Notes under the pieces: model-generated | The model's database searches: none | The model's input: the letters and a program-made list of their open reading frames with translations, nothing else | What the model was told of the DNA's origin: nothing | Assembly: GCA_026418905.1 (NCBI GenBank) | Contig: JAOAAK010000022.1 | Span: forward strand, 1-64,000 | Length of the DNA: 64,000 nucleotides | Direction: 5' to 3' | DNA from: Bacteroidales bacterium | GTDB lineage: Bacteria; Bacteroidota; Bacteroidia; Bacteroidales; DTU049 | Part shown: piece by piece, positions 1,131 to 47,193 of the stretch | Numbering within the stretch: position 1 is the stretch's first letter | Layout: every line of letters starts with the position of its first letter | Program-made: the position numbers and the translations under genes

Positions 1131-2585
1131 ATGAACGGAAAGTTCATTAAACACTCTTTCATCTACATGGTTGTTGGAGCTCTTCCTCTAGCAACTAGCA
1201 TACTATTATTACCTTTTTATGGCAATAAATATCTTCTTACGACTGAACAATTTGGCTTGTTGGCTATATACATTCTGCTTTCAGATTTTGCAAGATTAGC
1301 TTTTACATTTGCTCTCGAAAATTATGTCGGTGTAAATTTTATCCATGTAGTTCAAGATCCACAAAAACAAAAAATATTCATTGGAACTGTTTTTGGATTA
1401 ATGACACTGCTAGGAACATTTATGTTGGTTTTGTTCACCACAACAGGAAATTTGCTTTTTGGAACAATCTACCCTGGTGGAAAACTAATTTTTTTCCCAT
1501 ATGGTTTTCTCTCTCTTGCTACAGGCCTTTTCACAGCTATTTTTAAAGGTTATGGCAATCTGATGATTTATCAACAGAAACCCAAATCTTATTTTTGGGC
1601 TCATTTTATCCACTTTCTTTCGGTGGTTGGTATTTCCATTTCATGGCTCTATCTCCAGCCCTATTCTCTCGACGGTCCCATTTATGCAAGATGGATAGGT
1701 TCAATCATAACTCTTCTCTGGACATTTGCTTTCGTAGTTAAAAATGGCAAATTTTCTATGGACCTTCCTATCATTAAAGATGCCTTCAAATTTTCAATAC
1801 CTCTGTGGATCTTTTACATTCTTTACTGGGTAGTAGCTAACATCGATCGCTACATTATTTTAGGATTCCTTACTGCTAAGGAGGTTGCTATTTACGACGT
1901 AGCTATTAAAGTAACTTTATTGATTGAATTTCTTCAAAATGGTCTTTCTTCTGCTATTTTTCCTGAAGTTTTCAAAATTTGGAAAGCAAATCATAACGCA
2001 AAAACCTCTCATCAAGAGGTAAATAAATATTTTGATTTTTTCACGTTATTAACTTCTTGGTCGATCCCTCTTACCTTTCTGGCAACAATTCTATTCTTGC
2101 CACTTTTTGTCAACAACGAAGATTTATACCAGGCTTTTCGATATCTTCCTGTTTTGCTTGCAAGTATGATCATTCGTTCGTGGTTTTATTATGAATATGC
2201 CATTATTAATTATTTTAAAAAAACCCTCGTACTTGCTTGGTCTTTTGCTGTAGTTGCTGTTTTTCAGGTTATCTTGACTTACTGGGGAGTACGTCTTGCA
2301 TCTTTGGATGGAGCTATGATGGTTAATTTTTTAATCAAAATTTTACAGGTTGTTCTTCTTTATGTAGGTATTCGTTCCTGGTTTAATTTCGTTCCCTCCT
2401 GGAAAACTATGTTTTTCATGCCGTCGTTCTTTATTGTATTTTTGTTCATTGCTTATTTCTTCAATATTCCATTTTGGATAAATTTTTCTATTCAGGTGAT
2501 CATGTTGCTCGTTTTGATGTATGTTTTTTATCCACACCCCATTCGATATATTAAAAAATTTGTCCAAAATTTTCTTGTATTTTAG
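1131..2585 (+). CDS. Polysaccharide/lipid-linked oligosaccharide flippase (MOP superfamily, Wzx-like)
   Basis: Integral membrane protein of 484 residues with a dozen or more hydrophobic segments spread over the whole length. The overall pattern is that of polysaccharide biosynthesis proteins of the MATE/MOP flippase superfamily, which move undecaprenyl-linked glycans across the inner membrane. A conserved-looking stretch near the middle (FKFSIPLWIFYILYW, then ANIDRYIILGFL, then EVAIYDVAIKV) is typical of Wzx-like proteins. I chose the ATG at 1131 (MNGKFIKHSF) over a TTG 12 bases upstream, because that TTG belongs to the -7 promoter box. The gene sits with a YfhO-like protein and an SGNH/MBOAT pair, which supports a role in surface polymer export. 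Substrate unknown. Confidence 0.8.
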   Translation: MNGKFIKHSFIYMVVGALPLATSILLLPFYGNKYLLTTEQFGLLAIYILLSDFARLAFTFALENYVGVNFIHVVQDPQKQKIFIGTVFGLMTLLGTFMLVLFTTTGNLLFGTIYPGGKLIFFPYGFLSLATGLFTAIFKGYGNLMIYQQKPKSYFWAHFIHFLSVVGISISWLYLQPYSLDGPIYARWIGSIITLLWTFAFVVKNGKFSMDLPIIKDAFKFSIPLWIFYILYWVVANIDRYIILGFLTAKEVAIYDVAIKVTLLIEFLQNGLSSAIFPEVFKIWKANHNAKTSHQEVNKYFDFFTLLTSWSIPLTFLATILFLPLFVNNEDLYQAFRYLPVLLASMIIRSWFYYEYAIINYFKKTLVLAWSFAVVAVFQVILTYWGVRLASLDGAMMVNFLIKILQVVLLYVGIRSWFNFVPSWKTMFFMPSFFIVFLFIAYFFNIPFWINFSIQVIMLLVLMYVFYPHPIRYIKKFVQNFLVF

Positions 2586-2622
2586 CAACATCATTAGAGC
2601 ATATTAGAATCATTTTTTTTCT

Positions 2623-2630
2623 TAGGTTTG
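2623..2630 (+). promoter_or_regulatory. -7 box (TAGGTTTG) of the YfhO-like gene
   Basis: TAGGTTTG fits TAnnTTTG and lies 9 bases before the ATG at 2640, so the transcript would have almost no leader. Confidence 0.55.
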
Positions 2631-2639
2631 TCAAAAAAA

Positions 2640-5189
2640 ATGAGCACTTTTCGTGATAAGTATTTATCCTATGTTGTAGCGGGTATATTTATTCTCGTTT
2701 TATTATTGATCATGTTTTATCCAGCTCTGGAAGGAAAAACCATATTACAGGAAGACGTTATGAGCTGGAAAGCAAATTCAAAAGAAGCTTTTGATTACTA
2801 CCATAAAACTGGAAAACAAGCTTTTTGGGCGAACAACGTTTTCAGTGGTATGCCCACGTATCAGATTACCATCAAACATTGGGGAAATTTGTTCTTACAC
2901 GTAGACAAAGCACTTACATTATTTTTACCTTTCTTCATGGGAATTATCTTTTTGATATTCACCGGTTTTTATCTTTTTACGCGTTGGTTGAAGATGAATC
3001 ATTCTGCTGCATTATTAGGTGCATTGGCATTTACTCTTTCATCATATTTCTTCATCATTTTGGCTGTAGGTCATAATTCAAAAGCTCATGCTATTGCTTA
3101 TATGGTTCCATACTTGATTTCAGTGTTTTTCCTATACCGCGGAAAATATTTGCTAGGTACTTTATTGACAGCTGCTATTTTGGCTCTTGAGCTGAGTTGT
3201 AACCACGTTCAAGTAACATATTATCTAGCTTTCATGGTTCTTTTTCTAGTGATCAGCGAATTTATTCATGCCATCAAGGAAAAGGCTTTTAAACGTTTTT
3301 TTGTCGCAGCTGGTTTGCACCTAGCGAGTGTACTAATAGCTATTTTGGTGAATTTCTCAAACATCTATACTTCCTACCAATATGCCAAAGAAACCATTCG
3401 TGGCAAATCTGAACTGACTAGCAAAGAAAATGTTAAAGGACTGGACAAAAGTTATATCACCCAATGGAGTTATTCGCCAGGAGAAACTTGGACATTGATC
3501 ATACCTAACGCCAAAGGAGGGGCAAGCCAACCTATTAAAATAGACGGAAAACGTTTTCTTTCCAGCGTCGAGAATCCACAAGTCAGAGGCTTTTTAGGGG
3601 AATGGCACCAGTATTGGGGTGAACAACCTTTTACATCTGGGCCAGTCTATGCTGGTATTGTCATAAGTTTTCTTTTCCTACTTTCTCTCTTCCTATCGTC
3701 TCATCCCCTCAAATGGCCTCTTCTTGCTATCTCGTTGCTTGCTTTAGTTCTTTCTTGGGGTCACCACGCTTCTTGGCTTACCAACTTTTTTATCGACTAC
3801 ATTCCTCTGTACGATAAATTTCGAGCTCCCTCCATGTGGCTTATCGTACTTGAAATTACTATTCCTCTATTAGCTGTTTTCTTTATACATGATTTACTCA
3901 CTCGAAAAGAGGAACTACAGAAAAAAATTAAAGTTTTATATATTACTGGAGGTATTATGACTTTCATTTTATTGTTATTTTATCTCTCACCTTCTTCTTT
4001 CTTTTCATTCATCTCATCTAACGATACCAGCATGATCGAACAATATAAGAACTATTTTTCTCAGCAAAGTTCTGATCCAGCTCAAAATGCTCAAATCAAC
4101 GCATTTTTTGAAAATTTTGAACAAGAGCTTATTGGTTTACGGATCCAGATCTTTAAGCAAGATGTCTTACGTTCTCTCATATTTTTACTTCTTACTTTTA
4201 CCTTGCTTTGGGCATACTTCAAATGGAAATTTAAACCAATTGTTCTCGTATCTGGTCTAGCTTTATTCATTGCCGCCGACATGATACCTGTCAACAAACG
4301 ATATTTAAATAACAAAAATTTCGTATCCAAAGCTAAAGCAGAAAAGCCATTCACTGCATCCTTTGCTGACATGCATATCTTGCAGAATAATCCTGAAGGT
4401 CATCGAACCCTTAATCTCTCTGTCAATACATTTAACGATGCCACCACATCATACTTCCATCGTAGTATCGGCGGTTATCATGCTGCCAAACTTATGCGTT
4501 ATCAAGAACTTATTGAGAACCAGATATCTCCCCAGATTAAATTGCTTACATCCTATCTACAAAATAATATTACTCCTGAAAAACTAGATACTGTCTTAAG
4601 TAGAATGAACATACTTAATATGCTTAACACACGTTACATTATCGTCAATCCTAACGCTCAACCCATCATCAATCCTCATCATTGTGGTTTTGCATGGTTT
4701 GTCGATAGAGCAATTATTGTTGAAAACGCAGATGAAGAAATTCAACGTGTTGGAGAAATTGATCCGAAACGTGAAGTTACAGTAGATAAAAGATTTGCTC
4801 ATTTATTTAAATCGATTGATTTCACTCATCGCGACACTTCTGCAACCATCCAAAGAACAAACATCACCCCTAACGAAGTTAGTTTCACTGTCCAAACCAC
4901 TACGCCACAATTAGCCGTCATCAGTGAAATCTGGTACCCAGAATGGGAAGTTTATATCGATGGTAAAAAAGTCGATTTGCTAAGGGTAAATTACGTGTTG
5001 CGTGGAGTTGTCGTCCCTGCTGGAGCAAAGGAAATTACAATGAAAATTTATCCTCATGCTTTTATTATGAGTTCCTGGATAAGTCTTGCATCATCTATAA
5101 TTTTACTTGGAGCTATTTCAACAGCTTTATTTTTCTATTTCAGAAAGAATACATCCTTTAGAAAAAATGAAAATGAATCGCATTCCTAA
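2640..5189 (+). CDS. YfhO family multi-pass membrane protein
   Basis: Large membrane protein of 849 residues. The N-terminal two thirds contain about a dozen hydrophobic helices with soluble loops; the C-terminal part is a soluble domain ending in a last membrane helix (about residues 805-830) and a polar tail. The first periplasmic loop (KTILQEDVMSWKANSKEAFD) and the late WYPEWEVYIDGKKV segment are typical of Bacteroidetes YfhO-like proteins. In Firmicutes, YfhO proteins are GT-C-fold glycosyltransferases that modify cell-wall polymers; the role in Bacteroidetes is inferred only. Start: ATG 2640, not the TTG at 2628, which is part of the promoter box. It precedes the SGNH/MBOAT pair on the same strand. 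Confidence 0.8.
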   Translation: MSTFRDKYLSYVVAGIFILVLLLIMFYPALEGKTILQEDVMSWKANSKEAFDYYHKTGKQAFWANNVFSGMPTYQITIKHWGNLFLHVDKALTLFLPFFMGIIFLIFTGFYLFTRWLKMNHSAALLGALAFTLSSYFFIILAVGHNSKAHAIAYMVPYLISVFFLYRGKYLLGTLLTAAILALELSCNHVQVTYYLAFMVLFLVISEFIHAIKEKAFKRFFVAAGLHLASVLIAILVNFSNIYTSYQYAKETIRGKSELTSKENVKGLDKSYITQWSYSPGETWTLIIPNAKGGASQPIKIDGKRFLSSVENPQVRGFLGEWHQYWGEQPFTSGPVYAGIVISFLFLLSLFLSSHPLKWPLLAISLLALVLSWGHHASWLTNFFIDYIPLYDKFRAPSMWLIVLEITIPLLAVFFIHDLLTRKEELQKKIKVLYITGGIMTFILLLFYLSPSSFFSFISSNDTSMIEQYKNYFSQQSSDPAQNAQINAFFENFEQELIGLRIQIFKQDVLRSLIFLLLTFTLLWAYFKWKFKPIVLVSGLALFIAADMIPVNKRYLNNKNFVSKAKAEKPFTASFADMHILQNNPEGHRTLNLSVNTFNDATTSYFHRSIGGYHAAKLMRYQELIENQISPQIKLLTSYLQNNITPEKLDTVLSRMNILNMLNTRYIIVNPNAQPIINPHHCGFAWFVDRAIIVENADEEIQRVGEIDPKREVTVDKRFAHLFKSIDFTHRDTSATIQRTNITPNEVSFTVQTTTPQLAVISEIWYPEWEVYIDGKKVDLLRVNYVLRGVVVPAGAKEITMKIYPHAFIMSSWISLASSIILLGAISTALFFYFRKNTSFRKNENESHS

Positions 5190-5955
5190 GCCTTATTTTT
5201 ATTTTCTATTCACCATCACTTTTTCATTGCTGTTTTTTGTTTGTCTCTCCTTTATGAAAATATCTTTCTCCTTTGCTGGGATTGAATGGAAAGATAGCGG
5301 ACTAAGAGAATTTTTTCTTCGCGAAAAACCTACTGCTTTACTTGCTGATACTCTCGTACATAAGCCTGATGAAAAAGAAGATCATCGTGATAGTAGCGCA
5401 CAACGTTTTCTCCTCATTGGAGATTCTATGATTGAATTTTTTCGTCTACGCTTCAACGACTATTGTCGCCATAACGGCCATAAGATGTTTACTGTCATAT
5501 GGTTTAGTTCTCAAACTTATTGGTTCGGTACCACAGATACCCTCAAGTTTTTTATTGAAAAATACAAACCCACTTACGTATTGCTTAGCTTAGGAGCTAA
5601 CGAGCTTTTTGTTCCCAACATAAAAAGCAGGCAAAAATATATCGAACACATACTGAAACAAATCGGCAACATTCCTTTCGTTTGGATTGGCCCACCGAAC
5701 TGGAAGGAAGATACTGGCATTAATGATTTAATCGTAGAAAATGTAGGACCTCGCCGTTTTTTCCCTTCAAAAAACTTAACTTATACTCGTGCCAAAGATG
5801 GAGCTCATCCCGACAAGCCCTCTGCCTTCAAATGGGCTGATTCTGTTGCCTATTTTTTACACAACCACGCTCTTCATAAAGTACTCATGAATAAACCTGA
5901 TACTTTCCTTTACAAAAGCCCTCCTACTGAAATCTTGGCCCCTAAAAAAAATTAG
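5167..5955 (+). CDS. Membrane-anchored SGNH-hydrolase-like protein, probable O-acetylation partner
   Basis: 262 residues from the ATG chosen here. An N-terminal hydrophobic anchor (about residues 8-35) is followed by an SGNH/GDSL fold: block I RFLLIGDSMIEFF with the nucleophilic Ser, block III LSLGANEL, and block V KDGAHPD with the Asp-x-x-His pair. The longest frame begins at 5107 inside the YfhO-like gene. I prefer 5167 (MKMNRIPKPY), which still overlaps by 23 bases, or 5173, which removes a meaningless 20-residue extension. The gene ends 1 base before an MBOAT acyltransferase. In AlgI/AlgX- and DltB/DltD-type systems such a protein takes the acyl group from the MBOAT partner and attaches it to a polymer outside the membrane. 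The polymer here is unknown. Confidence 0.75.
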   Translation: MKMNRIPKPYFYFLFTITFSLLFFVCLSFMKISFSFAGIEWKDSGLREFFLREKPTALLADTLVHKPDEKEDHRDSSAQRFLLIGDSMIEFFRLRFNDYCRHNGHKMFTVIWFSSQTYWFGTTDTLKFFIEKYKPTYVLLSLGANELFVPNIKSRQKYIEHILKQIGNIPFVWIGPPNWKEDTGINDLIVENVGPRRFFPSKNLTYTRAKDGAHPDKPSAFKWADSVAYFLHNHALHKVLMNKPDTFLYKSPPTEILAPKKN

Positions 5956-5956
5956 T

Positions 5957-7423
5957 ATGCATTGGAATGAAATTCTATTGGACTTCTTCTCATATCATTT
6001 AGATAGGCCATTACTTTTCAACAGTGCTACATTTTGGTTTTGGTTAATTGTTGTTTTAAGTGTTTATGCCCTTATCTATCAACATAACCTTGCTCGAACT
6101 ATTTTCTTGCTAGCTTTTAGCCTATATTTTTATTACAAAAGCAGTGGCATTTTCGTGATTAACCTTCTTCTAACCATCATCTTTTCATATTTTCTTACCT
6201 TTCTGATGTATCAAACCAAAAATTTGCTTTTCAAAAAATTTCTACTTTTCATCACGGTTGCTTTTCCTTTGCTTGTATTGGGTTATTTCAAATACTACAA
6301 CTTCTTCCTAGATAACGTGGGGGCTTTAACAGGTCAGAATTTCGACAAAGCTGATATATTTCTTCCTATTGGTATTTCATTCTATACTTTTCAGATTTTA
6401 AGTTATGTGATCGACGTTTATCGTGGTCAACTTTCCCCTGAAAAAAACTTACTTGATTTCGCATTTTACATCACTTTTTTTCCCCAATTGGTTGCCGGAC
6501 CTATTGTTCGTGCAAGTTCTTTTCTTCCCCAGCTGAAAAAAAAGATCGTACTGGACAGTGTTGAAATCCAGAAAGGTTTTTTTCTGATATTACAAGGGCT
6601 TATCAAGAAAGCCATCATTGCCGACTACATTGCTCAGTACAATGATATAGTTTTCGCCAATCCATCTGGTTACAGTGGTTTCGAAAACCTTATGGCTCTA
6701 TATGGTTATGCTTTGCAAATTTATTGCGACTTTAGTGGTTACAGCGACATGGCCATTGGTATGGGCAAGATTATGGGGTTTGACCTTGGTATTAACTTCA
6801 ACAAACCTTACCAGGCACTTAATATTACTGATTTTTGGAGACGATGGCATATCAGTCTTTCAAGCTGGCTTCGAGACTATCTTTACATTCCCCTGGGTGG
6901 CAATCGAAAAGGAAAAATTCGCACTTATGTGAACTTATTCATTACTATGCTTCTAGGTGGACTCTGGCATGGAGCTTCATGGAGGTTCGTAATTTGGGGC
7001 GGCATGCATGGACTTGGACTTGCCATTCACAAAATTTGGCAAAAAATAGCTCCAACTAAACTGACAGAACATGTTCTTTGGAAAATTTTTTCTTGGTTAC
7101 TTACATTTCACTTTGTGGTTTTTCTATGGATTTTTTTCCGTGCTAGTACCATGCAAGAAGCTATGGCAATGTTCACACAGATATTTACAGCTATGGATAT
7201 GGCCTATGTTATTCCATTTTTCGAAGTAAGAAAATTATTTATTGTTCTTCTTCTCTTGGGTTTTGTTATTCATTTTATACCAACCCAGCTCTATCCCACG
7301 CTAGAAAATTGGTTTGTACGTGTACCTTGGCCTATCAAAGGATTGGTTTTCATCATCGTTGTCCAGCTCATCATCCAACTGAAAAGCGAGGGTGTTCAAC
7401 CCTTTATATATTTTCAGTTTTGA
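5957..7423 (+). CDS. MBOAT family O-acyltransferase (AlgI/DltB-like)
   Basis: Integral membrane O-acyltransferase of 488 residues. The family signature is clear: DFWRRWHISLSSWLRDYLYI followed by PLGGNRKG, and then LGGLWHGASWRFVIWG, which contains the conserved catalytic His of MBOAT proteins. Known members move acetyl or D-alanyl groups across the inner membrane to a periplasmic acceptor protein. The SGNH protein directly upstream (1-base gap) is the likely acceptor or transferase. The 3' end overlaps the convergent ettA gene by 10 bases (7414-7423), with no room for a separate terminator. Confidence 0.9.
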   Translation: MHWNEILLDFFSYHLDRPLLFNSATFWFWLIVVLSVYALIYQHNLARTIFLLAFSLYFYYKSSGIFVINLLLTIIFSYFLTFLMYQTKNLLFKKFLLFITVAFPLLVLGYFKYYNFFLDNVGALTGQNFDKADIFLPIGISFYTFQILSYVIDVYRGQLSPEKNLLDFAFYITFFPQLVAGPIVRASSFLPQLKKKIVLDSVEIQKGFFLILQGLIKKAIIADYIAQYNDIVFANPSGYSGFENLMALYGYALQIYCDFSGYSDMAIGMGKIMGFDLGINFNKPYQALNITDFWRRWHISLSSWLRDYLYIPLGGNRKGKIRTYVNLFITMLLGGLWHGASWRFVIWGGMHGLGLAIHKIWQKIAPTKLTEHVLWKIFSWLLTFHFVVFLWIFFRASTMQEAMAMFTQIFTAMDMAYVIPFFEVRKLFIVLLLLGFVIHFIPTQLYPTLENWFVRVPWPIKGLVFIIVVQLIIQLKSEGVQPFIYFQF

Positions 7424-9075
7424 TAAATTTTTCGGAAAGGAATTCTTTTTTTTCCTACGGTGGAAACATATTGGTTTTCGTATTCCTGGAGCGTTCCTTC
7501 AAAGAAACGAACATTCCCTTCAGGCTCAAAGATGATAAGATGCGTACATAGTTTTTGCAAAAACCAACGATCATGACTCACAATTAAAGTACAACCGGCA
7601 AAATGCTCTATAGCAAGCTCTAAGGCGCGTAAAGTATTAATGTCAATATCGTTGGTTGGTTCGTCCAAAAGCAATACGTTAGAAGGTTTTTTCAGAGCTA
7701 AAGCTAAATGCAGTCTGTTTCTTTCCCCCCCTGATAATAAACCACATTTCTTTTCCTGTACGGGACCAGTAAACTGAAAGCGAGCTAAATAAGCACGAAC
7801 AGGAATTTCATATTGATCTAAGTTTATAGTTTCTCGCCCATCACTTACCAATTCATAAACTGTTTTATCTGGATCGATAGGAGAATGCTGTTGATCAATA
7901 TAGGAAATCTGAACTGTGCTCCCTAAAACGACACGACCTTCGGTGGGTTGTTCATAACCTGCTATCAAACGAAGCAATGTAGTTTTTCCAGCTCCGTTGG
8001 GACCAATAATTCCGACAACAGCAGTAGGAGGAATCGTAAATGAAAGATCGTTGATTAACCACCTCTCACCTCGCTTTACTGAAACATGCTCAAACCTAAT
8101 CACATCATTACCCAAGCGTGGGCCTTTGGGGATGAAAATTTCGTAATTCTTTTCTTTCTTTGACGTTTCCTCTTCATACAGTCTCTCGTACGACTTAAGA
8201 CGAGATCTATTTCGTTCTATCTTTTGTTGAGCATTAAGTTGTGCCCATTCAAGTTCATATTGTAAAGTTTTGATTTTTCGCTCTTCTATTTTTTGGTCTG
8301 TTACATACATTTGTAATTTTTGTTGAAGCCATGAAGTGTAGTTACCTTTCCAAGGTACACCTTCACCACGATCTAACTCCAAAATCCATTCGGCAACATG
8401 GTCTAAAAAATATCGGTCATGTGTTACTGCAATGATGGTCCCTGGATAATCTCGTAAAAATTGTTCAAGCCAATAAACAGCATTGGCATCTAAATGATTA
8501 GTAGGCTCATCAAGCAGAAGAATATCAGGTTGTTGCAGTAGCAATCGTACAAGAGCTACCCTTCGTTTCTCTCCACCGCTTAAAGTGCCAATTAGTCTAT
8601 CTTGCGACGGACACATCAGTGCCTCCATGGCCATCTGTAAAGTTCGATCAAGTTCCCACCCCTGGTTTGTTTCAATAAAATTGGTCAACTCGCTTTGTCG
8701 GTCTATGAGCTTATTGAGTTCTTCGTCCGACATAGGTTCGGCAAAACGCATCGATATCTCTTCATATTCTTTTAATGCTTGGATAAGAGGAGCAACCCCC
8801 TCCTCTACTACTTCTCGAACTGTCTTGTTTGCATCCAATTCCGGTTCTTGTGGGAAATACCCAATGCTATACCCGGGCGAATATACTACTTTGCCTTCTG
8901 TGGGTTCCTCAAGTCCAGCAATGATTTTTAAAAGCGTCGATTTGCCAGCGCCATTTAAACCGATAACTCCAATTTTAGCCCCATAAAAAAAAGAAAGTGA
9001 AATATTTTTCAATACCCAACGGTTAGGAGGATATAGCTTCCCAACTCGAATCATAGAAAAAATAACTTTATCCAT
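7414..9075 (-). CDS. ettA: Energy-dependent translational throttle protein EttA (ABC-F ATPase)
   Basis: 553 residues, close to the ~555 usual for EttA. There are two ABC ATPase domains with no membrane part: Walker A GLNGAGKS (about residues 39-46) with signature LSGGEKRR and Walker B LLLDEPTNHLD, then Walker A GPNGAGKT with LSGGERNR and LLLDEPTNDID. The linker between them (about 245-310) is charged and helical, as expected for the tRNA-interaction motif of ABC-F proteins. EttA binds the ribosomal E site and gates the first elongation steps according to ATP/ADP. It follows a secreted-protein gene by 11 bases and may share its transcript. Other ABC-F paralogs (Uup, YheS) fit less well in length and first-domain sequence. 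Confidence 0.9.
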   Translation of the reverse strand: MDKVIFSMIRVGKLYPPNRWVLKNISLSFFYGAKIGVIGLNGAGKSTLLKIIAGLEEPTEGKVVYSPGYSIGYFPQEPELDANKTVREVVEEGVAPLIQALKEYEEISMRFAEPMSDEELNKLIDRQSELTNFIETNQGWELDRTLQMAMEALMCPSQDRLIGTLSGGEKRRVALVRLLLQQPDILLLDEPTNHLDANAVYWLEQFLRDYPGTIIAVTHDRYFLDHVAEWILELDRGEGVPWKGNYTSWLQQKLQMYVTDQKIEERKIKTLQYELEWAQLNAQQKIERNRSRLKSYERLYEEETSKKEKNYEIFIPKGPRLGNDVIRFEHVSVKRGERWLINDLSFTIPPTAVVGIIGPNGAGKTTLLRLIAGYEQPTEGRVVLGSTVQISYIDQQHSPIDPDKTVYELVSDGRETINLDQYEIPVRAYLARFQFTGPVQEKKCGLLSGGERNRLHLALALKKPSNVLLLDEPTNDIDINTLRALELAIEHFAGCTLIVSHDRWFLQKLCTHLIIFEPEGNVRFFEGTLQEYENQYVSTVGKKRIPFRKIYQN

Positions 9076-40537: not shown

Positions 40538-41293
40538 ATGAGGAAGAAAATTGCTGCAGCTAACTGGAAAATGAACCAGGATAAGTCTTCAGTTAAATCG
40601 TTTTTTTCTTTTTTTGAAAACTACACATTTAATCAACAAATAGAACTTATCATTTTTCCACCTTTTCTATATATGCCACTTGCCCATGAGTTAAACAAAA
40701 ACAACTTGTTTAAGTTGGGTGCTCAGAATGTTCACTATGAAGAAAAAGGTGCATATACTGGTGAAATTGCTTTATACATGCTCAAGGAATTTGACGTCCA
40801 ATTTGTTTTGATTGGACATTCAGAACGAAGAAAATATTTTCTTGAAACCAGCGAAATACTAGTTAAAAAGCTTAAGCATGTCCTAAAATATGATCTTACC
40901 CCTGTATTTTGTTGTGGTGAAGAACTTACACATCGTTATCAGAATAGGCATATGGACATTGTTTACGGACAACTCATGCAAACTATTTTTCAATTTTCTG
41001 CCGAAGAAATTAAAAAAATGATCATTGCTTACGAGCCTGTCTGGGCTATTGGAACTGGGGTAAACGCCACACCTGAACAAGCCCAAGAAATGCACCATTT
41101 TATTCGTCAATCCATCAACGAGCACTTTAATTCTAACATTGCTGACGACATCCCCATTTTGTATGGTGGCAGCATTACTGCTGAAAACGCTCATGAGATT
41201 TTTTCTATGCCCGATGTAGACGGCGGGCTTATAGGTGGTGCTTCGCTAAAACCTGATTCATACGAAGCCATTGTCAAAGCGTTAAATCCATAA
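40538..41293 (+). CDS. tpiA: Triose-phosphate isomerase
   Basis: 251 residues. Motifs: AAANWKMNQ (substrate Asn and Lys), VLIGHSERRKYF with the electrophilic His, IIAYEPVWAIGTGV with the catalytic Glu, then the flexible loop and YGGSITAENA and GGLIGGASL for phosphate binding. It interconverts DHAP and glyceraldehyde 3-phosphate in glycolysis. Its stop codon shares a base with the prmA start, so both are one transcript. Confidence 0.98.
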   Translation: MRKKIAAANWKMNQDKSSVKSFFSFFENYTFNQQIELIIFPPFLYMPLAHELNKNNLFKLGAQNVHYEEKGAYTGEIALYMLKEFDVQFVLIGHSERRKYFLETSEILVKKLKHVLKYDLTPVFCCGEELTHRYQNRHMDIVYGQLMQTIFQFSAEEIKKMIIAYEPVWAIGTGVNATPEQAQEMHHFIRQSINEHFNSNIADDIPILYGGSITAENAHEIFSMPDVDGGLIGGASLKPDSYEAIVKALNP

Positions 41294-42117
41294 TGTTACA
41301 TATTCAGTTTTCACTTGATCGACATTCAGACGAAGAAACTATTGTAACGTTGTTGTATTTTGTAGGATTTGAAGGATTTTATACAGAAAATAACATTATG
41401 CATGCCTTTATAGAAGAGCGTTTTTTCAATCAAACTCAACTGGAAAAAATTCTTCATGAAGCTGGTATTTTTTCTCCTTATGTCATTGAGAAAGTTCCTG
41501 ATCAAAACTGGAATTTTTTATGGGAATCATCATACGACCCTGTCCTCATCCAAGATAAAATTTATGTGAGAGCTCCATTTCATTCTCCTAGACCCGATAT
41601 ACCCTACGAAATTGTCATTATGCCTAAAATGAGTTTCGGTACCGCCCATCATTCTACTACATATGGCATGTTGGAAATGATGTTAAATTTAGATTTATTC
41701 GATAAAACAATTCTAGATGTGGGAACGGGTACAGGAATTTTGTCCATTTTCGCATTTCTTAAAAAAGCTAAAGAAATATGGGCCTGTGACATTGATGATT
41801 GGTCAATCGCCAATGCAAAAGAGAATTTTGAGTTAAACCATTGTTCCCATATCAATCTCATAAAAGGAACCATTCAATTGATATCTGAAAAAACTTTCGA
41901 CACTATTTTAGCTAACATTAATAAAAACGTATTGCTTGAAGAAATTCAGCTTTATGTTAAAAATCTTAATCACGGTGGTACTCTCCTTCTGAGTGGCTTT
42001 CTCGTAGATGATTTAGTTGAAATTGACTCCAAATGTTCTAGTTATGGAATGGAATTGGTACAATTTTTAAATAAAAATGAATGGATTATTGCCCGATTTG
42101 ATAAAGAAAAGCTATGA
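41293..42117 (+). CDS. prmA: Ribosomal protein L11 methyltransferase
   Basis: 274 residues. An N-terminal substrate-recognition domain is followed by the SAM-binding domain with MPKMSFGTAHHSTTYGMLEM, the glycine motif ILDVGTGTGILSIFA, IWACDIDDWSI and DTILANINKNVLLE (NPPF-like position). The order tpiA-prmA is common in Bacteroidetes. It overlaps the next gene by 4 bases (ATGA). Confidence 0.93.
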   Translation: MLHIQFSLDRHSDEETIVTLLYFVGFEGFYTENNIMHAFIEERFFNQTQLEKILHEAGIFSPYVIEKVPDQNWNFLWESSYDPVLIQDKIYVRAPFHSPRPDIPYEIVIMPKMSFGTAHHSTTYGMLEMMLNLDLFDKTILDVGTGTGILSIFAFLKKAKEIWACDIDDWSIANAKENFELNHCSHINLIKGTIQLISEKTFDTILANINKNVLLEEIQLYVKNLNHGGTLLLSGFLVDDLVEIDSKCSSYGMELVQFLNKNEWIIARFDKEKL

Positions 42118-45100
42118 AAAAATTTTTTATTATATTTTTATCTGTACCCTTGTTCTCATGGTGCCAGATTAAACTTTTTTCCGACAATCCATCTTCTTTT
42201 ATTCAGGAACTTACAGGAATGTACAACGAAATTGAGCAAAAGGACATCAAAAAGGAAGGTTTACTTTTTGTTCAGAACGAGATCACACCATGGTGGAATG
42301 GGCAAATTACGGATCAAAATAAAAAACAAATTATCCAAACATGTAACAACATCCTCAAACGAAAACTCAAGCTTCAGCCCCATGTAGAAACTTACCTCAA
42401 AACACTCATCGACATGACCAAAGTCGGTAAACTTACTTCAGCATTTACTTCATGGAATCAATCTGTTGAAAAACTTTTATCAAAAGGTAGTGGCAACGCA
42501 CTTCTTAAATTTTTTAATACCACCGATTCTCTTTTTTTGGGGAATGTTCTGTATGTCTCTAATTCTACAAAATGGGTCGCCAGTCATAATCAATATGATT
42601 TCATTTTTGAGGAAGAACCTGTTGTTGTTTTTAATCGCGTTAATATCACTTGTTATGCTTATGGTGATAGCAGTGTTATTTACGAAACATCAGGTAGGTA
42701 CTACCCCTTGCAAAACATGTGGTATGGCAAAGGAGGTAAAGTTTTTTGGACCAGAGCCGGTTTGAATCCAAATTCAGTATATGCACAACTTAACAACTAT
42801 AAAATCGAACTTAAAGGAAGAGATTTTACAGCAGATTCTGTAACTTTCTACAACAAACAAATTTTTGGAGAAACTCCCTTGTTCGGAATTCTAAATGATA
42901 AACTCATGCCTCCGAAAAAACCTGAAGATGCTAGATATCCCGTTTTCAAATCTTATGGGACAAGATTTCAGTTAAAAGATATTTATAAAAATATAGACTA
43001 CGAAGGAAGCTTCACTCAACGAGGTGCTTCTATTCTTGGAACAGGAAACGAAACCGAACCCGCCATTTTATCCCTGAAAAAAGATGGAAAAGTTTTTATG
43101 AAAATTTATACACAAAGTGTATCGTTGGAGAAGGAAAGCTTTACTACGGATGATGCTTCCATAAATATATATTTTGAAGGGGACAGCATTTATCACAACT
43201 TTGTCTCTGTTTCTTACATACAAAATAGAATCATCAAAGATCCTAATACAGGTGCATCAAAACAAATAGAAGTCAACGAAGTTTCAATCATACCGCATAA
43301 AATTGAGGGTCTTGGTAGTGCACCATTCATAGATACTTACCATAAATTAGAAATCTATGCCGAAGAACTTAGATGGCAGAAGGGCGAACCTAAATTGGAT
43401 TTTACCACTATCAAGGGCCCTGCTTCAAGTGGTTTTGCTCGGTTCGAATCTTTCAACTACTTTTCTGTTGACCGTTATGAAAGGTTAAGAGGTATAGATG
43501 AAATACCACCTATTCAAACCCTAAAAAATTACGCCCAGTCGATCGGAAGCCGATACTTTCATATCAGAGACTATGCAAAATACCGAAAAACTCAAATAGA
43601 ACAGATTCAAGCTCAAATGATTCAACTCGCTTATAAAAATTTCATAGATTACAATCCACGCACTGGCTATATTTTTGTTCACGATAAAGTTTACGATTAT
43701 GTAGCTTGTCGAGCTGGCAAACAAGATTACGACGTGATTATTTTTAATTCAGAAATATCTGCAGAAGCCAATGCCAGCTTAAGTCTGATCAATTACGACT
43801 TAAAAATAAGAGGTGTAAGCCGTGTGTTTTTAAGTGATTCTCAAAACGTAGTGATTTATCCTACAGACCAAGAAATTATCGTGAAAAAAAACAGAGATTT
43901 TCTTTTTTCGGGACGTGTCCATGCAGGTTTATTTGATTACTATGGTAAAAACTTTAGTTTTAGTTATGAAAAATTTAAATTGGATTTACCTGTCATAGAT
44001 TCCATGACATTTAAAGTAAGAAGCAGAAAACCAAATGAATACGGAGAATACCCCCTTGTTCGGGTTAAAAGTGTTGTTGAAAATCTTTCTGGAGATTTGC
44101 TCATCGATCATCCAAACAATAAAAGTGGCTTAAAACAATTTTCAGAATACCCTATTTTTAATTCTAAAAAATATTCTTATGTCTACTACGACATCAATTC
44201 AAAATATCCTGGAAAATATCCTCGAGACCAGTTTTTTTATAGAATAGATCCATTTACCATCGATAGTCTCGATAATTTTTCTACCGACGGTTTGCAATTT
44301 ACTGGGTATTTACAATCTGCTGGGATATTTCCTGATATCGTTCAACCTTTAAAGGTGATGCCCGATTATTCATTGGGTTTCACATACCAAACCCCATCGA
44401 AAGGATTGGCAACGTATGGAGGAAAAGGTTCATTTGAAGGGATAATTAATTTATCCAACCAAGGACTTCGTGGTGAGGGTACCTTAACTTATTTATCCTC
44501 GACGAGCAAAGGAAATGATTTTCTCTTTTTCCCTGATTTCATGACTGCTACAGTTAAAGATTTTTATGTTCAAGCTCAGAAAAGTCCTGTATCGATTCCT
44601 CCAGTTGAAGCTCATGACGTAAAGGAAATTTGGTACCCTCAAAAAAATGAACTGACCGTTTCGACACAAAATATACCTGCTAAACTTTACAAGGAAGAAA
44701 CCAATCTTACTGGAGAATTAACTCTAACCCCATCCGGATTGTCTGGCAAAGGTAAAATGGAATTCAAAAATGCTATTATTATTTCTCGACATTTCAAATA
44801 CAAGGAAAGAACTTTTGATACTGACACATGCGACTTTTTTCTTAAAACAATTGACTATAACGAGTTGGCTTTCGAAACAAAAAATTACAAAGGACATGTT
44901 GATTTCGACGAAAGAAAAGGTGGATTTATTTCCAACGGTGGAGTTTCCTTAGTTCGCTTTCCTGTTAATGAATACATCTGTTATATGGACCGTTTTGATT
45001 GGTATATGGACAAGGATGAGATTGATATGCAAAGCATTGATAAGCAAATCCCAACATATGAGAACCTATCAGTCCGTGAACTAGCTGACATTGATTTAAG

Positions 45101-46661
45101 TGGTTCAGAATTTATCTCCGTACACCCAGCTCAAGATTCTTTACGTTTTAGATCATCCCGCGCTAAGTATAGTTTAAAAGAAAAAATCATATATGCTTAC
45201 GACGTTAAATACATCAAAGTAGCCGATGCTACAATCTTCCCAGGTGATGGCAATGTCACCGTACTTAGAAAAGCAGAAATGCTTCCATTGGAAAATGCGC
45301 AAATTCTAGCTAACAATACAACCAAATACCACTTGATAAAAAATGCACGCGTCAATATTTACGGAAGAAAAAGTTACAAAGCTAATGGTTATTACGATTA
45401 CGTAGATGAGATCGAAAACCTTCAAAAAATATTTCTTGATAGCATTACAGTAGATGCAACTTTACAAACAGTTGGCCATGGTTATATTAAAGATTCCTTA
45501 CAATTCACACTCAGCCCATATTTTGATTTTTATGGCGATGTTTTTCTTAAAGCAAATGAAGAATTCCTTACTTTCTCTGGTGGAGTTCGAATACATCACC
45601 AGTGTGATACATTACCCCGTCAATGGCTTAAATTTACTGCTTCAATTAATCCTATGGAAATTTTTATTCCAGTAAGTGAAAATCCTGTTAATACTGCAGG
45701 AAAGCGTATTTATGCAGGTCTTTATTTTAATTCCTCTGATACTATTGGTGTTTATCCTGCTTTTCTTAGTTATAAGCGTGTCGGGGGAGATGCCGAAGTT
45801 GCTTCATCGAGTGGTTTTCTTACTTTCGATCATCAAAGCAACGAATATCGTATTGCATCTAGAGAAAAACTAGAACAACCCATTCTGCCTGGAAATTGGA
45901 TGAGTCTCTCCATTTATAAATGTGAAACCAGAAACGAAGGTAAACTCACCATCGGCAATAACCTTGGAAGAGTAAAAATGAATAATTACGGGCGAATAGA
46001 CCACTCTATGAAAGATACCACTACTATAATTTACACAGTTAGTGAACTTAATTTTCATTTTAACACTGAATGTATCAAGCGAATGACTGATCTTATTAAA
46101 AATAAAACAGATCTTGAATCCTTCAACGTAAGATCTGAACTGTTTACGAAATACCTTGGATTGCTTTTTCCGCCTGAAGAAAGCCAAAAGATTGAATCAG
46201 AGTACATGCTTTACGGTTACCTAAAAAAATTTCCTTCCAATCTCGAAAAAACTATTACCTTTACTGACTTAACATTTCGATACAACAAAAAAACAAAAAG
46301 TTACGTGTCAACAGGTAAATTAGGAATTGGATGGATTGGAAGCGAACAAATTTATAAATACGTTGATGGCATTATAGAACTAACTCAACGTCGAGGTGGG
46401 GACCGCCTAACCATTTATTTAGCTGTTGGGAGTGACTGGTTCTTTTTTGATTACGCCAATAACTCTATGCTTGCATTATCCTCGATTAAAGAATGGAATG
46501 ACCTCATCATTAACACAAAACCTGAACAACGCGAACTCAAATCGAGAGATAATGAACCTGCATATAACTATTATATTGCCCCAATTTCTCGTAAAAATCG
46601 TTTCCTAAAAAAGCATATGGAAGGTGAAGAATTAAAAGAAGAAGGTTCAGGAGAAGAATAA
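42114..46661 (+). CDS. Giant secreted protein of unknown function (1515 residues)
   Basis: Starts with a signal peptide (MKKFFIIFLSVPLFSWCQI). The first ~120 residues are helical; the rest is a long series of beta-strand-rich segments (for example TCYAYGDSSVIYETSGRYY, GSFTQRGASILGTGNETEP, GKGSFEGIINLSNQGLRGEG, ARVNIYGRKSYKANGYYD). The alternation of short charged/hydrophobic strands and turns resembles stacked beta-taco (OstA/LptA-like) or similar periplasmic repeats, which is inference only. There is no T9SS sorting domain and no clear C-terminal barrel; the last ~20 residues are acidic. It is translationally coupled to prmA. I do not recognise a named family. Confidence 0.75.
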   Translation: MKKFFIIFLSVPLFSWCQIKLFSDNPSSFIQELTGMYNEIEQKDIKKEGLLFVQNEITPWWNGQITDQNKKQIIQTCNNILKRKLKLQPHVETYLKTLIDMTKVGKLTSAFTSWNQSVEKLLSKGSGNALLKFFNTTDSLFLGNVLYVSNSTKWVASHNQYDFIFEEEPVVVFNRVNITCYAYGDSSVIYETSGRYYPLQNMWYGKGGKVFWTRAGLNPNSVYAQLNNYKIELKGRDFTADSVTFYNKQIFGETPLFGILNDKLMPPKKPEDARYPVFKSYGTRFQLKDIYKNIDYEGSFTQRGASILGTGNETEPAILSLKKDGKVFMKIYTQSVSLEKESFTTDDASINIYFEGDSIYHNFVSVSYIQNRIIKDPNTGASKQIEVNEVSIIPHKIEGLGSAPFIDTYHKLEIYAEELRWQKGEPKLDFTTIKGPASSGFARFESFNYFSVDRYERLRGIDEIPPIQTLKNYAQSIGSRYFHIRDYAKYRKTQIEQIQAQMIQLAYKNFIDYNPRTGYIFVHDKVYDYVACRAGKQDYDVIIFNSEISAEANASLSLINYDLKIRGVSRVFLSDSQNVVIYPTDQEIIVKKNRDFLFSGRVHAGLFDYYGKNFSFSYEKFKLDLPVIDSMTFKVRSRKPNEYGEYPLVRVKSVVENLSGDLLIDHPNNKSGLKQFSEYPIFNSKKYSYVYYDINSKYPGKYPRDQFFYRIDPFTIDSLDNFSTDGLQFTGYLQSAGIFPDIVQPLKVMPDYSLGFTYQTPSKGLATYGGKGSFEGIINLSNQGLRGEGTLTYLSSTSKGNDFLFFPDFMTATVKDFYVQAQKSPVSIPPVEAHDVKEIWYPQKNELTVSTQNIPAKLYKEETNLTGELTLTPSGLSGKGKMEFKNAIIISRHFKYKERTFDTDTCDFFLKTIDYNELAFETKNYKGHVDFDERKGGFISNGGVSLVRFPVNEYICYMDRFDWYMDKDEIDMQSIDKQIPTYENLSVRELADIDLSGSEFISVHPAQDSLRFRSSRAKYSLKEKIIYAYDVKYIKVADATIFPGDGNVTVLRKAEMLPLENAQILANNTTKYHLIKNARVNIYGRKSYKANGYYDYVDEIENLQKIFLDSITVDATLQTVGHGYIKDSLQFTLSPYFDFYGDVFLKANEEFLTFSGGVRIHHQCDTLPRQWLKFTASINPMEIFIPVSENPVNTAGKRIYAGLYFNSSDTIGVYPAFLSYKRVGGDAEVASSSGFLTFDHQSNEYRIASREKLEQPILPGNWMSLSIYKCETRNEGKLTIGNNLGRVKMNNYGRIDHSMKDTTTIIYTVSELNFHFNTECIKRMTDLIKNKTDLESFNVRSELFTKYLGLLFPPEESQKIESEYMLYGYLKKFPSNLEKTITFTDLTFRYNKKTKSYVSTGKLGIGWIGSEQIYKYVDGIIELTQRRGGDRLTIYLAVGSDWFFFDYANNSMLALSSIKEWNDLIINTKPEQRELKSRDNEPAYNYYIAPISRKNRFLKKHMEGEELKEEGSGEE

Positions 46662-46686: not shown

Positions 46687-47193
46687 ATGAAAATTGAAAA
46701 AAACACAGTCGTAACATTGAAGTATCGCCTCACTGAGAACGATAAAGCTGGTTCTTTGATTGAGGAAGTTACCGAACAAGATCCTTTTATATTTCTGTTT
46801 GGACAAGGTCAATTACTACCCAAATTTGAAGAAAATCTGAAAGGTCTGGAAATAGGTCACACCTTTTCATTTACTCTGACCCCAGAGGAAGCTTACGGTG
46901 AATACCTTGAAGAAAATATTGTTGATATACCTATCCAGATTTTCATGAAAAATGGAAAAATTGACAAGGACATCCTGTTTGAAGGTAATGTGGTTCCCCT
47001 TCAGGATCAGCAAGGTAACGTTTTTGAAGGCGTCATACTTGATATCGGTCTGGAAAATGTCCGTATGGATTTCAACCATCCGTTGGCAGGTAAAAGTCTT
47101 CATTTTGAAGGCGAAATTCTAGGAATACGAGAAGCAACAGCTGAAGAGATAGCTCATGGTCATGCACACACACCAGGTGGTCGTCACGCATAA
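46687..47193 (+). CDS. slyD: FKBP-type peptidyl-prolyl isomerase, SlyD-like
   Basis: 168 residues. An FKBP domain split by the insert-in-flap domain, as in SlyD: VVTLKYRLTENDKAGSLIEE, PFIFLFGQGQLLPKFEENLKGL and TLTPEEAYGEYLEENI before the insert (about residues 70-125), then MDFNHPLAGKSLHFEGEI after it. The C-terminal tail is short with a few His (HGHAHTPGGRHA), much less metal-binding than in E. coli SlyD. It folds proteins and isomerises prolyl bonds in the cytoplasm. Its 3' end overlaps the convergent methyltransferase gene by 10 bases. Confidence 0.92.
   Translation: MKIEKNTVVTLKYRLTENDKAGSLIEEVTEQDPFIFLFGQGQLLPKFEENLKGLEIGHTFSFTLTPEEAYGEYLEENIVDIPIQIFMKNGKIDKDILFEGNVVPLQDQQGNVFEGVILDIGLENVRMDFNHPLAGKSLHFEGEILGIREATAEEIAHGHAHTPGGRHA

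Follow-up and report, generated by a model that had tools for sequence, protein, structure and literature searches.

Reading frame and export signal

The stretch of DNA analysed here, referred to as the window, is 64,000 nt long and contains a large open reading frame, termed BIG, that follows tpiA and prmA on the forward strand. The genes and the domains predicted within BIG are as follows.

40538..41293, + strand: tpiA, triosephosphate isomerase (Pfam PF00121, E 2.7e-87), a conserved neighbour
41293..42117, + strand: prmA, ribosomal protein L11 methyltransferase (Pfam PF06325, E 2.1e-42), overlapping BIG
42114..46661, + strand: BIG, putative giant secreted beta-taco-like protein of 1515 aa (reading frame and homologues)
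42114..42167, + strand: BIG signal peptide, residues 1–18 (by eye, from the conserved AQ/SQ/GQ end in homologues)
42189..42542, + strand: helical N-terminal domain, residues ~26–143 (model, pLDDT mostly 75–87)
42570..42977, + strand: beta segment like LptC (3my2), residues ~153–288 (VIA Z 10.6, 118 aligned, 3.2 Å)
43467..43715, + strand: winged-helix-like insert, residues ~452–534 (model and MarR-type Foldseek rows)
43740..46052, + strand: main beta region with internal repeats, residues ~543–1313 (models and self profile comparison)
44670..45290, + strand: best-matched beta-taco segment, residues ~853–1059 (VIA, E. coli LptD N-domain)
46065..46628, + strand: C-terminal alpha/beta domain, residues ~1318–1505 (model 600–1515)
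46687..47193, + strand: FKBP-type prolyl isomerase, 25 bases downstream of BIG

The BIG frame opens with an ATG and has no internal stops, and its antisense reading is stop-rich. By sequence comparison a chance open reading frame is excluded, as full-length homologues with 26–60 % identity are present in scores of genomes. The frame shares the four bases ATGA (42114–42117) with the end of prmA. In nearly all homologues a hydrophobic N-terminal stretch ends in A/S/G-Q and, judged by eye, resembles a cleavable signal peptide. Cys17 of BIG lies in the context F-S-W-C, which is not a lipobox, and the cysteine is not conserved among homologues. The signal peptide, the lack of a lipobox and the four-base overlap with prmA, all proposed in the initial annotation, are thus borne out.

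Sequence family and distribution

No family in Pfam or NCBIfam matched BIG at E values up to 10. PHROGs likewise gave no match with a cutoff of E 1, and searches of the PDB by sequence gave no credible match; the sole PDB profile rows were antibody chains (E 0.2–1), which were judged to be chance. Credible Pfam matches were likewise absent from all 12 BIG members searched (0/12) and from two more of 1499 and 1788 aa; the sole Pfam row across the 12 was GCM in one member (E 0.21), also judged to be chance. As no Pfam or NCBIfam family appears at E up to 10, BIG carries no T9SS C-terminal sorting-domain model. Both the missing family assignment and the missing T9SS domain had been anticipated from the sequence, and they hold within the databases named. 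Judging by the entries listed, no openly available journal article describing BIG was found.

Copies of BIG that are 26–42 % identical were found in 11 of 56 pattern stretches of labelled genome contigs, the labels being Bacteroidales, Bacteroidetes/Bacteroidota, Saprospiraceae or uncultured bacterium. Among relatives of the source genome BIG occurs in 30/40 with that genome counted (23/31 good genomes), and among genomes sampled from its own order in 104/149, or ~70 % (91/131 good ones). In a sample of 296 genomes from the phylum there are 11 with BIG, all in the same class as the source, which is represented there by at least 73 genomes. Outside the order, BIG occurs in scattered genomes of the class, with none elsewhere in the phylum sample. 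Full-length copies are mostly about 1480–1860 aa. By these counts of homologues BIG is a large, widespread and unnamed sequence family. It is missing from whole families, and is thus not essential in general.

Genomic context

Gene neighbourhoods were compared at 38 loci of sampled genomes and 11 labelled-contig loci, two sets in which some genomes may occur twice; G020 and G028, whose BIG matches are fragmentary, were left out. The order tpiA-prmA-BIG recurs across loci, and prmA lies directly upstream of BIG on the same strand in 23/38 sampled-genome loci (besides which two others, G017 and G084, end too near BIG to show an upstream gene) and 7/11 labelled loci. In one sampled genome (G033) and three labelled loci (L007, L008 and L012) tpiA precedes BIG without prmA, and in L007 and L008 the overlap of tpiA and BIG is again four bases. 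Neither gene precedes BIG in L002, in five genomes of genus g4 and in seven others. At the g4 loci L018, L019, L020 and L026 a frame of ~206–208 aa takes the place of tpiA-prmA; the L018 copy of this frame has no Pfam match. The linkage to prmA suggested initially is thus conserved but not universal.

PrmA is a cytoplasmic methyltransferase. The coupling of prmA to BIG was considered as a clue to function and rejected, since tpiA adjoins BIG without prmA in several loci, the g4 loci have neither gene, and PrmA is itself cytoplasmic. We take the linkage as inherited gene order together with translational coupling.

On the downstream side, plsY follows BIG within 250 bases and on the same strand at 6/38 and 3/11 loci (9/49: G016, G023, G024, G031, G111, G205, L004, L005 and L010), its identity resting on PF02660 in L004. 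PlsY, a glycerol-3-phosphate acyltransferase, is an enzyme of phospholipid synthesis. The FKBP gene follows BIG in the source genome and five close relatives only. Among the minority of neighbouring genes that could be named, no lpt gene was recognized beside BIG.

Two loci differ in other respects. In L012 (5610–10101) BIG is split after tpiA into two overlapping frames of 141 and 1357 aa, through a frameshift, an assembly error or a true split. In L094 (G012; 1581–7512) BIG is preceded by genes resembling the yajC and coaE frames of the window, in which both are encoded on the opposite strand, 3–5 kb downstream of BIG; this vicinity is a second recurring neighbourhood of BIG.

Predicted structure

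Two AlphaFold2 models, each built with 12 sequences, cover residues 19–1000 (mean pLDDT 74.7, pTM 0.49) and 600–1515 (mean pLDDT 64.3, pTM 0.48). The middle of the protein, residues ~600–860, is the least certain part of the models: in model 600–1515 nearly all of residues 600–856 have pLDDT below 50, and in model 19–1000 residues 600–790 are mostly at 50–89 and ~800–860 at 38–63. With models this middling, and the low values at 600–856 in one of them, the continuity of the putative groove is tentative.

After the helical N-terminal domain, beta structure begins at ~145. It is interrupted by the insert at ~452–534, about 80 residues modelled as helical with a two-stranded wing in the order helix-helix-helix-wing. 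Foldseek searches with model 19–1000 returned winged helices of MarR/SarA type with probability 0.95–0.99 over 85–95 columns; from the order of helices and strands, we infer that these rows cover the insert. No column between S446 and D538 is invariant in the 12-row BIG alignment, and the insert is thus more variable than the beta scaffold. The C-terminal domain (~1318–1505) is modelled with helices and long strands. By the models roughly 1,000–1,100 residues of BIG are beta-rich. The more than 1300 beta-rich residues estimated initially are therefore reduced to a beta-rich body of that size, flanked by a helical N-terminus and a mixed C-terminus and carrying the winged insert. The ~86 strands of the beta region are apolar on one face and polar on the other (z 5.7), a property that is not discriminating.

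Compared with the PDB in Foldseek, model 600–1515 matched LptD with E 2.9e-5, and LptA and LptC rows had probability near 1 and TM of about 0.5–0.77 by target length. In VIA the same model gave the E. coli LptD N-domain at Z 14.3 (163 aligned, 3.4 Å, protein residues 853–1059), LptC at Z 12.1 and LptA 2r1a at Z 11.3 (120 aligned, 2.9 Å), with non-Lpt chains reaching Z 8.8 at most. Model 19–1000 matched LptC twice, at residues 862–975 (Z 11.0) and 153–288 (Z 10.6), followed by LptD chains at Z 6.5–9.5 and other proteins at no more than 5.6; its Foldseek whole-chain rows were weak and mixed with propeller proteins. LptA/LptH also stand among the best VIA matches, alongside the LptD N-domain and LptC. 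TamB/AsmA chains are absent among the VIA matches listed for both models, which is no sign that the fold differs. A beta-taco fold of the BIG body like that of LptA, LptC and the LptD N-domain is thus supported by the models, and the stacked beta structure of LptA/OstA type foreseen in the initial annotation gains support at the level of predicted fold.

Internal repeats and profile comparisons

Profiles of 49 BIG sequences were compared by hhalign (HMM-HMM) with 26 OstA, 29 LptD and 29 TamB C-terminal parts, all from Bacteroidota. BIG scored 0.3 % against OstA (reversed control 0.2 %), 0.5 % against LptD (reversed 0.2 %) and 0.2 % against the TamB C-terminal profile (reversed 0.4 %). OstA and LptD are known kin, and as a positive control they matched one another at 63.7 % (E 6.7e-5). 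Kinship of BIG with OstA, LptD and TamB was rejected on this basis, its 0.1–0.5 % being equal to the reversed-profile controls; the profile comparison proposed initially against OstA/LptA and TamB thus yielded no relationship. A confident match to a characterized family had been named there as an argument against the original reading. Such a match was found for the fold only, whereas the profile tests do not assign BIG to the OstA, LptD or TamB families.

Within BIG, residues 848–1458 pair with 757–1327 (73 %, E 3e-5) and residues 330–629 with 797–1112 (24 %), compared with 1.3 % for BIG against its own reverse. In the latter match ~546–604 (GVSRVFLSDSQNVVIYP) pairs with ~1002–1078 (VKYIKVADATIFPGDGNV). 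From these repeats the body of BIG probably grew by internal duplication. Together with the lack of profile kinship, they make the likeness between BIG and the Lpt proteins one of fold.

Lipid-transport genes in BIG-bearing genomes

The source genome has its own OstA (L070, 504 aa), recognized by PF13100 and PF03968, a separate LptD (C47), an LptC frame of 196 aa, two LptF/G genes and a TamB frame of 1477 aa. Because all of these are present, BIG is an extra component. Neither this complete, separate Lpt set nor the winged-helix insert had been foreseen in the initial annotation. Among the 31 good genomes of the first sample, those lacking BIG included, OstA is present in 31 and LptD in 30.

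In that sample two TamB genes occur in 7/8 good genomes without BIG versus 1/23 with it (p 2e-5, uncorrected for phylogeny). Counts of genomes with at least two TamB matches, some of which are two stretches of one gene, are 30/45 without BIG versus 34/104 with BIG in the 149 genomes of the order (p 1.5e-4), and 49/60 versus 5/10 in the class outside the order (p 0.04), again uncorrected for phylogeny. In family f38, from the phylum sample, the BIG-bearing genomes G088, G185 and G225 have one TamB match each and the genomes without BIG (G115, G150, G233 and G312) two or more, BIG and a second TamB match being mutually exclusive in these seven. The contrast fails in f39 and f40, where four BIG-bearing genomes carry 2–4 TamB matches. 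A second TamB is thus commoner where BIG is absent, clearly so in the first sample and less so in the larger ones, a weak hint from gene content that it may replace BIG. According to PMC12045153, TamB2-TamL2 occurs in 20/30 Bacteroidota species and is dispensable in F. johnsoniae.

Discussion

By sequence BIG constitutes a new family; the fold predicted for it is of a known kind, while its build is unusual. The reading preferred here, which we hold with about even confidence, is that BIG serves as an additional periplasmic lipid conduit, its beta-taco groove holding acyl chains, most likely those of glycerolipids, alongside the Lpt chain and TamB. BIG would be exported to the periplasm via its signal peptide, the apolar interior of the beta-taco would accommodate lipid tails along its length, and the protein would either bridge the inner and outer membranes for lipid or chaperone lipid between them. 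As no membrane segment is evident beyond the signal peptide, docking on membrane partners might proceed via the helical N-terminal domain, the inserted winged helix and the C-terminal domain. The winged helix is presumably a protein-contact rather than a DNA-binding module, since BIG is exported. In beta-taco geometry each rung has two strands and rises 4.8 Å; ~86 strands would therefore give a body near 200 Å, which could cross the periplasm if it forms a single continuous stack. We infer the continuity of the groove, lipid binding, bridging and the cargo from the findings above. The cargo is most likely glycerolipid, in a role like that of TamB/AsmA, and less likely LPS, given that BIG is not needed to complete the Lpt chain. 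Two weak hints, the neighbouring plsY and the trend in TamB counts, point the same way.

The closest solved folds are those of the LPS pathway, and BIG could instead assist in bridging the LPS of these bacteria, either as an additional LptA-like link or by regulating the Lpt chain. LptA is soluble and without a membrane anchor, and BIG, exported and apparently soluble, would resemble it in this respect. We consider this unlikely, as OstA and LptD are present in nearly all good genomes even where BIG is missing, and no lpt gene was recognized among the minority of its neighbours that could be named. Alternatively, BIG may have a non-lipid role in scaffolding or chaperoning proteins of the outer membrane or cell surface, in which the beta-taco would supply rigidity and proteins would dock on the winged helix and the end domains. 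Such a role would fit the several non-beta domains and the adjoining FKBP gene; according to PMC12045153, TamL depletion in F. johnsoniae shifts the outer-membrane proteome more than the lipids. However, the FKBP neighbour is limited to the source genome and its five close relatives, and BIG has no T9SS family domain, so that we regard a scaffold with similar scepticism. A superficial fold match, in which a long beta solenoid or meander of unrelated function was drawn into a beta-taco by prediction, would fit the absence of profile kinship, the pTM below 0.5 and the alignment of 12 rows only. It is nonetheless quite improbable, given that Lpt chains top both VIA rankings at Z 10–14 and other proteins stay below 9.

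LptA/OstA (PF13100, PF03968) and the LptD N-domain share with BIG export and the beta-taco fold predicted for it. The 12 BIG members do not match these Pfam models, whereas the OstA of the source genome matches both; BIG is also three times longer than OstA, has added helical, winged-helix and C-terminal domains, and stands in another gene context. Relative to LptD (PF19838), BIG has a predicted beta-taco of the N-terminal type without a Pfam match, and its C-terminal part is modelled as an alpha/beta domain, not as the C-terminal beta-barrel. The periplasmic domain of LptC superposes on two separate BIG segments (Z 10.6–12, on the models), but no transmembrane anchor is seen in BIG. TamB/AsmA-like proteins (PF04357) are of similar length (TamB 1477 aa) and BIG, like them, presumably has a long beta groove; it lacks a PF04357 match and any profile kinship to the C-terminal part of TamB. 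TamB is anchored in the inner membrane (PMC12045153), whereas BIG appears soluble, with no membrane anchor seen. The ~80-residue insert shares its order of helices and wing with MarR/SarA winged helices, the copy in BIG lying in an exported protein.

In our reading of the field, the route by which non-LPS lipids reach the outer membrane of Bacteroidota is an open question. The profile libraries used in this analysis can miss a long beta-groove protein, and BIG, found in ~70 % of the sampled genomes of its order, as long as TamB, predicted to form a beta-taco and without a family name, would be a concrete new candidate conduit. More tentatively, and with considerable doubt, BIG may add to the Lpt chain and AsmA/TamB a third class of periplasmic lipid bridge: a soluble, anchor-less and internally duplicated beta-taco of ~1,500 residues, docking by a winged helix, that would supply the outer membrane with glycerolipids, or with lipids specific to Bacteroidota, in most of the order and would elsewhere be partly replaced by a second TamB.
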